A stretch of 46,394 bases of DNA, from the NCBI GenBank assembly GCA_020718085.1, contig DYDB01000009.1, positions 1 to 46,394 on the forward strand, read 5' to 3'. Each line of letters starts with the position of its first letter. The first letter of the stretch is position 1. This document shows, in pieces, positions 14,987 to 29,249 of this stretch. The position numbers were made by a program, and so were the translations under genes. The notes below the pieces were generated by a model. The model was not told the DNA's origin, did no database searches, and saw nothing but the letters and a program-made list of their open reading frames with translations. The DNA is from Micavibrio sp. Lineage in GTDB: Bacteria > Patescibacteriota > Minisyncoccia > Moranbacterales > GCA-2747515.

Positions 14987-15050
14987 ATTCATACATATTT
15001 TGAAAAACATCAAAAATTGATATTGACTCATCACCTTCTATGACGCCAAA

Positions 15051-15236
15051 AAACCAAAAGACCTCGTCCATCTTGCGATGTCGAGATCTTTATTTGTAGC
15101 TCGTAGGGGAAATCTCACGCGCTCATGTTATCCATTCGCTTTTGAAACCATGCGGTTTCAATACTTCCTCTGCTGGAAAACATTGTTTTCCCGACCCCTT
15201 TCCTTGTTCGATTCCTTTGCATTGTGTACAAAACTA
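15051..15236 (-). repeat. tRNA-associated cassette 1 (tRNA-Glu)
   Basis: In tRNA sense the order is: an inverted copy of the tRNA-Glu T-arm (15206-15215 reads GTTCGATTCC on the plus strand, exactly the tRNA's own variant); hairpin b (GGAAAAC 15175-15181 / 15185-15191); the linker; hairpin a (TTGAAACC 15142-15149 / 15154-15161); then a direct copy of the tRNA 3' end plus the terminator downstream of it. The direct copy, 15051-15111, matches 15231-15291 at 60 of 61 bases, offset exactly 180 bp. The T-loop side of the copy has decayed. The core is shared with the two cassettes at 28473-28590 and 28760-28903. Confidence 0.8.
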
Positions 15237-15271
15237 AAAGACCTCGTCCATCTTGCGATGTCGAGATCTTT
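15232..15271 (-). terminator. tRNA-Glu terminator, duplicated at 15052-15091
   Basis: The minus strand reads AAAGATCTCG (complement of 15262-15271), an inner CATC-GCAA-GATG hairpin, then CGAGGTCTTTT (15237-15246) and a T-rich tail. An identical hairpin lies 180 bp further on, as part of the duplicated 3' end. Confidence 0.75.
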
Positions 15272-15276
15272 ATTTG

Positions 15277-15348
15277 TAGCTCGTAGGGGAATCGAACCCC
15301 TGTTACCAGGATGAAAACCTGGCGTCCTGACCACTAGACGAACGAGCC
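15277..15348 (-). tRNA. tRNA-Glu (TTC)
   Basis: It folds as a cloverleaf: acceptor GGCTCGT / ACGAGCT (first pair G-U), D-arm GTC/GAC, anticodon stem CCAGG/CCTGG with loop TTTTCAT giving anticodon TTC, T-stem AGGGG/CCCCT with loop TTCGATT, discriminator A. CCA is not encoded; the next bases are CAA. Confidence 0.93.
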
Positions 15349-19798: not shown

Positions 19799-21073
19799 TC
19801 ATGTTGCTTTATGATAAACCTCATCTCGTACCTTTTTCAAAGTACACAAAAACCGATCCACATGATCTTCTGTGTGAAGGGCTGTAAGAATAGTACGTAA
19901 AATCGCTTTTCCTTTCTCAATTGCCGGCCAATACACATCTCCGACGGATATACCCTTCGCTAAAAGAAGCGAATGCATTAAGTGACATAATTCGTCACCA
20001 ACTTGTATCGGTATAATATGCGTATTAGCGTTCAAAGTATTGAATCCTTCATTTTTCAATTCAATAAGTGTACGTGAGGATAAACGATGCAAATTTCGCC
20101 TCAATTCCTCACTTTGCGGACTTCGTATTAAACCGACAACATCATGTGCGGTCGCAGCAATATATGGCGGAAGTCCTGCTGCAAAGATATAAGCCTCCAT
20201 TGCCTTTCTCGCAAAGTTCGCGATTTCCGGATTTGGAAATATTATATAACCACCTAACCCACATGCAAATACTTTGCTCAATGTACCAACTTCAATAAAG
20301 ATTGACCGGTCAAGATCTTCCAAGCCATCCACATGAAGAAGTCCTCGCCCTTCATGACCATATACCCCATCGTCATGAGCTGTATCCAGCAAGATCTCTG
20401 CAAAATATTTTTTTGCAAGATCATGAATAATACGCACATTAATTGCATCACCATGCATGGAAAATACAGTATCAGTAACAATGAGCCTATCTGCATCAAC
20501 GTGTGCATATCGCACAAATTTTTCTTCGAGATCCGCATAGTCCAAGTGACGATATGTAACCGTTTTCACCTTCTGACTGGGTCCTAATTCACCTTTTCTG
20601 AATGGCAGGAGTGGTCTCTGAAGCGAAATATGCGTATATTCATCAATGAAAACAATGATCGGCAGACGTTTCCTGAAGACATTATCACCAAGAATCATCA
20701 AATTTTGACCGATCATAAATTCAATTACGCTTTTTGCCGCAAGATATCCAGAGTTCAACATGAGACATGAACCTCGTGGAAATCCCTTAAAATCCGCAAT
20801 TGCGTCTTCACACTCACGCACTGCATTGGTTTGCAAGATAAGTGGTGAACACGCCAATCCTGATCCGAGATCATTCAAATAACTCTGCATGATCCGCGGA
20901 ACACCGAGGTCTCCAAGGTATTGCAACGTATTGAAAGAAAGAACATCATTATGCTGTTGCACCACGATTTGTGGTCCCAATGGTGTACTGACGGCAGTTG
21001 TAATATTGCGATACCCATCCGTTCCTTCATTTTCACGTTGGAAATTGATAATTTTTTGAAAAAACTGACTCAT
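19799..21073 (-). CDS. Alpha-oxoamine synthase family PLP-dependent acyltransferase
   Basis: 424 residues of fold type I PLP enzyme. The family condenses an amino acid with an acyl thioester (8-amino-7-oxononanoate synthase, 2-amino-3-ketobutyrate ligase, serine palmitoyltransferase, 5-aminolevulinate synthase). Diagnostic segments: DEYTHIS (His148, PLP stacking), TDTVFSMHGD, LLDTAHDDGVYGHEGRG (Asp230/His233), GTLSKVFACGLGGY with probable Schiff-base Lys267, and a C-terminal IPIQVGDE segment. Deviations from the consensus (DTAH for DEAH, SKVFA for GKAFG) set it apart from BioF and Kbl. A strong SD (GGGAGGGG) lies 5 nt upstream. No biotin or heme genes are nearby, so a sphingolipid-like or ketone-forming role is possible. 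The substrate cannot be assigned. Confidence 0.85.
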   Translation of the reverse strand: MSQFFQKIINFQRENEGTDGYRNITTAVSTPLGPQIVVQQHNDVLSFNTLQYLGDLGVPRIMQSYLNDLGSGLACSPLILQTNAVRECEDAIADFKGFPRGSCLMLNSGYLAAKSVIEFMIGQNLMILGDNVFRKRLPIIVFIDEYTHISLQRPLLPFRKGELGPSQKVKTVTYRHLDYADLEEKFVRYAHVDADRLIVTDTVFSMHGDAINVRIIHDLAKKYFAEILLDTAHDDGVYGHEGRGLLHVDGLEDLDRSIFIEVGTLSKVFACGLGGYIIFPNPEIANFARKAMEAYIFAAGLPPYIAATAHDVVGLIRSPQSEELRRNLHRLSSRTLIELKNEGFNTLNANTHIIPIQVGDELCHLMHSLLLAKGISVGDVYWPAIEKGKAILRTILTALHTEDHVDRFLCTLKKVRDEVYHKAT

Positions 21074-28472: not shown

Positions 28473-28590
28473 TTTTTGTACCCCGGGAGGGATTCAAACA
28501 TCGCTTCGCTCTTTGAAAACCGGCGGTTTTCAATACTTTCCTCCAACGGAAAAACATGTGTTTTTCCAACCCTTTTCCAATTCGAATCCC
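28473..28590 (-). repeat. tRNA-associated cassette 2 (tRNA-Arg)
   Basis: In tRNA sense: an inverted T-arm copy (28581-28590 reads TTCGAATCCC on plus, exactly the tRNA-Arg variant), hairpin b (GGAAAAAC 28548-28555 / 28560-28567), linker GGAGGAAAGTA, hairpin a (TTGAAAACC 28513-28521 / 28525-28533), then a direct copy of the tRNA-Arg 3' end (28473-28499). The direct copy matches the gene at 23 consecutive bases, then one G-to-A change. The offset from the real 3' end is 174 bp. Confidence 0.8.
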
Positions 28591-28652
28591 ACCAAAAACC
28601 AAGTGTGTAATAAACTTTTAATCTTATATTTATCACTTATAATTTATTTTTG

Positions 28653-28726
28653 TACCCCGGGAGGGATTCGAACCCCCGACCAACGGGATAGAAGCCCGCT
28701 GCTCTAATCCACTGAGCTACCGAGGC
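28653..28726 (-). tRNA. tRNA-Arg (TCT)
   Basis: Acceptor GCCTCGG / CCGGGGT (with G-U pairs), TAGCTC D-arm start, anticodon stem GCGGG/CCCGT with loop CTTCTAT giving TCT, T-stem GGGGG/CCCTC, loop TTCGAAT, discriminator A. CCA is not encoded; the next bases are CAA. It lies downstream of tRNA-Lys with no obvious own promoter, so it is probably co-transcribed. Confidence 0.93.
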
Positions 28727-28759: not shown

Positions 28760-28903
28760 TTTTGTGTGCTGTGAAGGATTCGAACGTCGCAGTACTCCTT
28801 GAGAACCACACCTGCCTGCCGGTAGGCAGAATTCTCAACACACCCCTTCACAGAGAAACTTTCGTTTCCCCAACCCATTTTCACGTTCGAATCGCACACA
28901 AAA
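28760..28903 (-). repeat. tRNA-associated cassette 3 (tRNA-Lys)
   Basis: The best-preserved member. The direct 3'-end copy (28760-28787) is complementary, segment by segment, to the rest of the cassette: 28760-28769 pairs with 28894-28903 (10 bp), 28777-28787 pairs with 28883-28893 (11 bp), and 28769-28777 pairs with 28845-28853 (9 bp). Hairpin b is GAAAC 28855-28859 / 28864-28868; hairpin a is TTGAGAA 28799-28805 / 28832-28838, with a short palindrome inserted in its loop. The copy differs from the real tRNA at two acceptor positions (G to A in tRNA sense). Confidence 0.82.
28812..28829. repeat. Short GC-rich palindrome
   Basis: CTGCCTGCCGGTAGGCAG is a near-perfect 18-bp palindrome in the loop of cassette 3 hairpin a. 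A decayed relative lies at 29165-29182. Confidence 0.6.
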
Positions 28904-28916
28904 CACGACACATTTG

Positions 28917-28989
28917 TGCGCCGTGAAGGATTCGAACCTTCGACCGTTTGGTTAAGAGCCAACTGCTCTACCGACTGAGCTAACGGCGC
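28917..28989 (-). tRNA. tRNA-Lys (CTT)
   Basis: Acceptor GCGCCGT / ACGGCGC pairs perfectly. D-arm GCTC/GAGC, anticodon loop CTCTTAA giving CTT, T-stem GAAGG/CCTTC with loop TTCGAAT, discriminator A. CCA is not encoded; the next bases are CAA. Confidence 0.95.
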
Positions 28990-29028: not shown

Positions 29029-29164
29029 TTAATTTCCCACAACAAAAGATGATCGGTAAACAACCGTCAGACCAATATCTGGGGTGGTTTTTTATTTGCT
29101 GGCTAAACCGCCGACAGGGCGTTTTGTGTGAATTTATAAACTCACTTTTCATTATATGTCATCC

Positions 29165-29217: not shown

Positions 29218-29249
29218 AAAAAAGTGTGTGTACGTACACACACTTTTTT
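29218..29249. terminator. Perfect 32-bp palindromic terminator of the envelope operon
   Basis: 16 + 16 bases, A6 GTGTGTGTAC and its exact complement with no loop bases, ending in T6 on both strands. It lies 32 bp beyond the stop of the last envelope gene. Confidence 0.85.

Follow-up and report, generated by a model that had tools for sequence, protein, structure and literature searches.

Folded units with target-specific arms beside tRNA genes of Patescibacteria, probable attachment sites of small mobile elements

Results

We have analysed a stretch of 46,394 nucleotides from a Patescibacteria genome (assembly GCA_020718085.1, contig DYDB01000009.1; the whole of this stretch is referred to as the window), in which every tRNA gene is followed by a small structured unit built in part from copies of that tRNA's own 3' end. 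The source genome, G000, is 1.29 Mb long in 18 contigs. ARAGORN finds exactly three tRNA genes in the window, for tRNA-Glu, tRNA-Arg and tRNA-Lys, all on the minus strand, and each has one unit downstream in the sense direction (Table 1). An earlier note made from the sequence alone had described these as tRNA-linked cassettes, and the observation is real and far larger in extent than was first noted; the span that it singled out, 28760-28989, takes in the tRNA-Lys gene as well. Its claims that the tRNA-derived parts are specific to the adjacent tRNA and that their pairing co-varies also hold in the window, in that the Glu unit carries GGAATCGAAC, as opposed to GTTCGATTCC, and the inverted arm of the Lys unit has GTGTGC, which pairs with GCACAC in the direct copy, whereas the tRNA has GCGCAC. 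At tRNA-Glu the direct repeat is about 62 bp long and includes the terminator (15050-15111 versus 15230-15291, 98%).

Table 1. Window features, and GIY-YIG genes elsewhere in G000. R1 is the covariance model described in the text.
Feature	Position	Strand	Evidence or remark
tRNA-Glu(ttc), target 1	15276-15348	-	ARAGORN
Unit 1 inverted arm, GGAATCGAAC	15206-15215	-	sequence; complement of tRNA-Glu nt 53-62
Unit 1 structured core	15119-15205	-	R1 match 15104-15219, 75.6 bits
Unit 1 hairpin b	~15175-15192	-	
Unit 1 hairpin a	~15142-15161	-	
Unit 1 direct copy of tRNA-Glu 3' end and terminator	15050-15118	-	sequence
tRNA-Arg(tct), target 2	28652-28726	-	ARAGORN
Unit 2 inverted arm, GGGATTCGAAT	28580-28590	-	sequence
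Unit 2 structured core	28500-28579	-	R1 match 28485-28593, 105.7 bits
Unit 2 hairpin b	28548-28567	-	
Unit 2 hairpin a	28512-28532	-	
Unit 2 direct copy of tRNA-Arg 3' end, GTTTGAATCCCTCCCGGGGTACAAAAA	28473-28499	-	sequence
tRNA-Lys(ctt), target 3	28916-28989	-	ARAGORN
Unit 3 inverted arm, GTGTGCGATTCGAAC	28885-28899	-	sequence; compensatory pairing with copy
Unit 3 structured core	28786-28884	-	R1 match 28771-28898, 80.6 bits
Unit 3 hairpin b	28852-28871	-	
Unit 3 hairpin a, enlarged	28800-28838	-	
Unit 3 direct copy of tRNA-Lys 3' end, GTTCGAATCCTTCACAGCACACA	28763-28785	-	sequence
GIY-YIG gene (L020)	G000:C7:19867-20091		between tRNA-Ile(gat) and its displaced tail, copy at 20168
GIY-YIG gene (L340)	G000:C15:123080-123292		adjoins tRNA

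The units share a common layout, in which the tRNA is followed by a link that often holds a terminator-like hairpin, an inverted copy of tRNA nt 53 to 60-69, a core of about 75-100 nt, and a direct copy of nt ~57-76. Within this core (core 1), reading 5' to 3' after the inverted arm, are GGAAAGGGGTCGG, hairpin b (GGGAAAAC..GTTTTCCC), a linker (GGAGGAAGTAT), hairpin a (TTGAAACC..GGTTTCAA) and a small hairpin c (GAGCGAAGCGAC). The direct copy often begins GTGARA, where the tRNA counterpart is GTTCRA, and it usually stops at the tRNA 3' end. G000 holds six core-1 units, at tRNA-Leu(tag), tRNA-Leu(caa) and tRNA-Pro(tgg) in addition to the three in the window.

A search with a covariance model (R1, built from 10 sequences), of the kind that the earlier note had proposed, finds many more units near tRNA genes in related genomes. 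Within the source order, 68 of 131 genomes contain R1 matches (E<=0.01), the richest having 11; in a phylum-wide sample of 380 genomes, 32 contain matches at E<=1e-5. Among species-representative genomes, 74 stretches contain an exact core pattern; all titles that name a lineage are of Patescibacteria (Moran-, Jorgensen-, Kaiser-, Taylor-, Berkel-, Uhrbacteria and others), and some say only 'bacterium'. Of 84 distinct units from beyond the order sample, 67 are in sense downstream of a tRNA and no more than 250 bp from it, the remainder being 3 that precede a tRNA, 1 in antisense and 13 with no tRNA near. In the order sample, whose units were fetched partly for clustering, a tRNA precedes the unit in 85 of 127 cases, with 31 isoacceptors involved. 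As to the suggestion that no described family fits, no Rfam family covers the units at the gathering threshold, where tRNA is the only match, and open-access PMC full text, the literature covered, contains no description of them, a weak sign of novelty. A match to the Rfam family IS605-orfB-II (27.5 bits, against a cut-off of 88) was rejected, most of the model being skipped and AT-rich flanks aligned. A virus or plasmid vehicle was likewise rejected, with no exact core in IMG/VR and no match in phages or plasmids.

The two arms follow the tRNA that they accompany. For the 57 units with an assessable inverted arm, scored at the variable positions 57, 59 and 62-67, 279 cells match the unit's own tRNA, compared with 163 +/- 9 after permutation and a maximum of 197 in 5000 permutations, and the direct copy matches its own tail at 1228 of 1494 positions, compared with 695 +/- 18 when permuted. 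The match between cassette and neighbouring tRNA, on which the earlier note had staked its reading, thus lies far beyond permutation. Departures from the usual tRNA sequence are answered in the arm, an odd GTCC in tRNA-His (L135) by GGAC, and an odd GTTCGAGCCC in tRNA-Asp (L087) by GGGCTCGAAC. Most inverted arms start at G53 (among arms of adequate score, the complement starts at nt 53 in 36, nt 54 in 7 and nt 52 in 2). The inverted arm is not copied from the displaced tail, because it complements GTTC, which is absent from most copies (they have GTGA). It spans the junction, and would be either derived from the intact target or carried by the element as a guide. In the Lys unit, where the earlier note saw a pseudoknot-like order, the tRNA tail and the copy are both possible pairing partners of the arm. 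In two units at tRNA-Arg(tct) (L070 and L139), the inverted arm is of the Arg(cct) type and the direct copy is that of Arg(tct), as if the inverted arm had travelled with the core.

In the core, the sense strand folds into three hairpins. In an alignment of 52 units made from sequence only, 83.5% of cells pair, and the covariation score of 0.224 compares with 0.134 +/- 0.007 for shuffled alignments and with a maximum of 0.126 when the partners are slid. Because the signal in helix 1 comes partly from target copies, helices 2-5 give the fairer evidence of covariation. Hairpin b has 41 G.T and 8 A.C cells. The counts for hairpin a (34 G.T and 46 A.C) are uninformative on strand, because its register is off by one in part of the sequences. 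An apparent pairing of alignment columns 51-72 was read as a lineage signature of linker and stem length, and not a pair. The pattern points to a structure of the sense strand, which RNA or single-stranded DNA would fit alike.

The units come and go within the genus. In five congeners the tRNA-Lys and tRNA-Arg genes are 6-40 bp apart and the unit is absent, and because of these empty tRNA-Lys sites we regard the unit as moving, and not as a fixed appendage of the tRNA. Cores 94-95% identical follow different tRNAs in genomes of different families, and cores inside one genome can share just ~70%; the nearest relative of a core lies in the same genome 23 times, compared with 3.8 expected.

Nor are tRNA genes the sole targets. 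The 3' ends of genes encoding ..QWAKR*, read from sequence as rpsI, are a recurrent second target in several genera (L093, L097, L074, L152, L163, L169, L173, L179 and L180), sometimes with two tandem units that each repeat the last codons. A gene family ending in ..GWAKF*, present as tandem copies, is also targeted, and one unit lies antisense near the start of a gene read from sequence as fusA; the protein-gene sites include a surface-protein gene family. Units at protein genes obey the same arm rule as those at tRNAs. Core-1 copies also fill the spacer between tRNAs (L157, L090, L161, L078, L158 and L091) or abut a tRNA 5' end, with ..CGAC and then the tRNA (L148, L150, L156 and L159).

Many units without an adjacent tRNA close a larger insert. 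In other genomes the sequence at their end is often the tail of a tRNA that lies 1.0-5.8 kb upstream. Displaced tails are found for tRNA-Gly (G009 +1031; G073 +187 and +2434; G010 +1570), tRNA-Gln (G067 +1379; G008 +5780; and, in the source genome itself, G000 +104 and +1245) and tRNA-Glu (G008 +169 and +2365). The open reading frames (ORFs) between tRNA and displaced tail are mostly in the sense orientation, and the unit-bounded intervals encode SUKH/SMI1, SnoaL and UbiA domains. A scan for copies of nt 59-74 of each G000 tRNA (40 in all), allowing at most 2 mismatches and independent of core type, found 11 copies, from 10 tRNAs, within 8 kb downstream in sense, none within 8 kb upstream and none in antisense, with 2 farther away. 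The copies span several insert types of common layout. Core 1 accounts for those of Glu, Arg, Lys, Leu(tag), Leu(caa) and Pro; a second core, GGATGAGAAGTTTATGC..GGGTAA, is present at Ser(cga) and, in two copies 1.1 kb apart, at Gln(ctg); a tRNA-Ile duplication encloses a GIY-YIG ORF; and Arg(gcg) has one other type. This closure of gene cassettes by units, and the several insert types with the same layout, go beyond the account in the earlier note. We read the units away from tRNAs as probable distal attachment sites of small cassettes inserted in T-loops, with a logic like that of integrons.

The second core is shorter, has the same arm layout at tRNA tails, and was seen at L030 (G000:C17), L113 (G004), and L091 and L145 (G040). 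At L145, core 1 is nested in a further insert, GATTCGAAGGGCGCGCC...GGCCCGAAGGAG, with the same arms. The motif GTTCnAACnTCGTCCCA follows ORFs at the left end of several distal sites (L306:14293 and 14946, L308 and L307) and in one instance stands by itself behind an ORF, and may represent a half-site. Elsewhere in the window are a perfect 32-bp palindrome at 29218-29249, probably a terminator, and a segment at 29095-29164 that resembles G000:C16:47829-47895 (86%).

Discussion

We consider it probable that the unit is the integrated end, or attachment site, of a small mobile element or cassette that inserts in the T-loops of tRNA genes and less often at other conserved gene ends. The anatomy of intact tRNA, insert and displaced tail appears to be that of an integration product. 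Insertion would occur between about nt 53 and 59; the element would supply or duplicate the tail and thereby keep the tRNA whole, and the second tail copy would be displaced to the far side of the insert. The folded site beside that tail would consist of the target-complementary inverted arm, the three-hairpin core and the tail copy; cargo cassettes would place ORFs between the tRNA and the folded site, and inserts lacking cargo would be the 150-250 bp unit alone, as at all three tRNAs in the window. The folded strand may be the substrate recognised by a recombinase or nuclease, and by analogy with integrons the distal folded site suggests single-strand recognition. The inverted arm would be a target guide, or would arise at insertion. 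We favor a recombination site that is folded and strand-specific, lands in tRNA T-loops and would be moved in trans by a host-encoded recombinase or nuclease.

Several observations weigh against this interpretation. Most units carry no cargo, some isolated units (including two in G009:C24) have no source tRNA on their contig, and some that lie between two tRNAs, or before one, have no recognisable arms. The copy stays near the tRNA sequence to its 3' end while the flanks have diverged, which could reflect selection on a tRNA-like end. No moving enzyme emerges from the Y1, reverse transcriptase and integrase matches of unit-rich genomes, and as movers a Y1 transposase and a reverse transcriptase were both rejected, the former being absent from the unit-rich G000, G008, G009, G010 and G045, and RVT_1 from at least 8 of the 14 unit-bearing genomes searched (G000, G008, G009, G010, G040, G045, G051 and G058). 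Most unit-rich genomes have just one Xer-type recombinase gene, and there is a single Phage_integrase match in each of G000, G008, G009, G010, G037, G040, G045 and G051; the G000 protein, of 313 aa, reads as a housekeeping Xer, with no IntI-specific profile applied. The Xer-like protein is a candidate mover by elimination only. The ORFs of the cassettes read include no integrase gene, and action in trans is possible. Another lead is provided by small single-domain GIY-YIG genes, which adjoin tRNAs in many of these genomes (G010, G037, G051, G058, G070 and others) and one of which lies 23 bp after tRNA-Gln(ttg) in G000. GIY-YIG was rejected as a required partner, the sole match in G008, which has six units, being of UvrC-like length (427 aa).

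The nature of the units suggests other models to consider, and the interpretation in the earlier note, taken as a whole, is partly supported, with its several proposals faring differently. Its tiny mobile element targeting T-loops, or dedicated insertion mechanism, is supported by the empty sites in congeners, the near-identical cores at different tRNAs, the target-derived arms and the non-tRNA targets. Its other proposals were an RNA controlling tRNA 3' maturation and a decoy end. Such a role could fall to a cis-acting structured RNA co-transcribed with the tRNA, whose arm would pair alternately with tail or copy, and this model would fit the sense-strand covariation of the core, the compensated pairing of arm and copy in the Lys unit, and the conservation of the copy to the tRNA 3' end, ACA included. 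We nonetheless think it improbable, since congeners lack the unit at the same tRNAs, terminator-like hairpins separate the unit from its tRNA at Glu, at Lys (L046), at Ser (L045) and at others, the same core is found at rpsI, at the surface-protein gene family and 1-6 kb from a tRNA, and the tails have decayed in many copies. A retro-type element, in which the core RNA is copied in by target-primed reverse transcription and fold-back copying, frequently off the terminator hairpin, produces the arm, would also account for structure in the sense strand, as well as for a duplication length that varies from 17 to ~63 nt past A58 and for the long quasi-palindrome that tail, terminator and inverted tail often form together (z>3 in 24 of 55, the terminator hairpin itself contributing). 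This too is unlikely, however, in that the RVT_1 gene is missing from many unit-rich genomes, the mismatch between the arm, which complements GTTC, and most copies, which have GTGA, excludes the copy as template, the arms of L070 and L139 come from another tRNA, and gene cargo is ill-suited to a 100-nt RNA element.

Homing by the small GIY-YIG endonucleases, as putative cutters of tRNA genes, with units and cassettes spread by repair, is suggested by the placement of these genes against tRNAs, including those at tRNA-Ile(gat) and tRNA-Gln(ttg) in G000. We give it little weight, because G008 maintains its six units with the UvrC-length match only, unit-free genomes also hold GIY-YIG genes, and the inverted arm is left unexplained. 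Finally, the arm order (3'-exon complement and then 5'-exon complement) is like that of a group I internal guide, and 58 of 63 fused sequences of tRNA(1-57) and copy are called as tRNAs, as might be expected of a self-splicing or trans-spliced tail-swapping intron in which the arm is the internal guide and splicing of nt 56/57 to the copy restores the tRNA. However, a cryptic tRNA 5' half needing the copy is present in none of 42 units away from tRNAs, there is no group I or group II match in the window at the Rfam gathering threshold, and the direct copy is missing from some units (L045), and we regard this model as very improbable indeed.

If the unit is an attachment site, it looks like an undescribed one. 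Patescibacteria account for a large part of the diversity of bacteria and have few recognised routes of gene acquisition, and a widespread site family that marks tRNA-gene cassettes offers a direct handle on gene exchange among them. The copy number suffices for statistics, so that how a tiny element carries arms specific to many targets becomes testable, and displaced tails and units near tRNAs can mislead the annotation of both tRNAs and genes. We know of no family whose tiny element carries arms specific to many different targets. More tentatively, the units may belong to a new cassette system of Patescibacteria that uses T-loops as universal landing sites, with the arm of the folded site, as a copy of or guide to the target, re-addressed for each target entered.

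Comparison with known systems shows partial resemblances. Insertions in rRNA genes are abundant in bacteria of the candidate phyla radiation, with GIY-YIG among their ORFs and many short and unclassified (PMC11270868). They resemble the units in their host bacteria and in having translation RNA genes as their sites, although they lie inside rRNA and tRNA goes unmentioned in that study. IS200/IS605 and REP/RAYT elements share hairpins and a single-strand logic, and IS200/IS605 recognises its target by base pairing, but several unit-rich genomes have no Y1, and the units duplicate their target and have long target-specific arms. Integrative elements with tyrosine integrases insert at the T-loop and 3' end of tRNA genes, leaving an intact tRNA, a displaced tail at the far end and cargo between, and also use the 3' ends of protein genes such as rpsI. 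The units resemble these in having an intact tRNA and a displaced tail downstream in sense, and differ in that they are just 150 bp to 6 kb long, the cassettes read encode no integrase, a covarying core and target-specific inverted arm flank the displaced tail, and one unit family serves more than 30 isoacceptors. The units depart from integrons in that no IntI-type gene was seen beyond one Xer-like protein, IntI-specific profiles not having been applied, and from attC in that the RYYYAAC...GTTRRRY core sites are absent (GTTCRAN does not fit GTTRRRY), the landing site is a tRNA, and the arms follow the target, those at rpsI being wholly different. Like integron cassettes with their attC sites, however, they have small ORFs, mostly in sense, with a folded and strand-specific site of inverted repeats after them, and a second copy of the site stands after the cargo.
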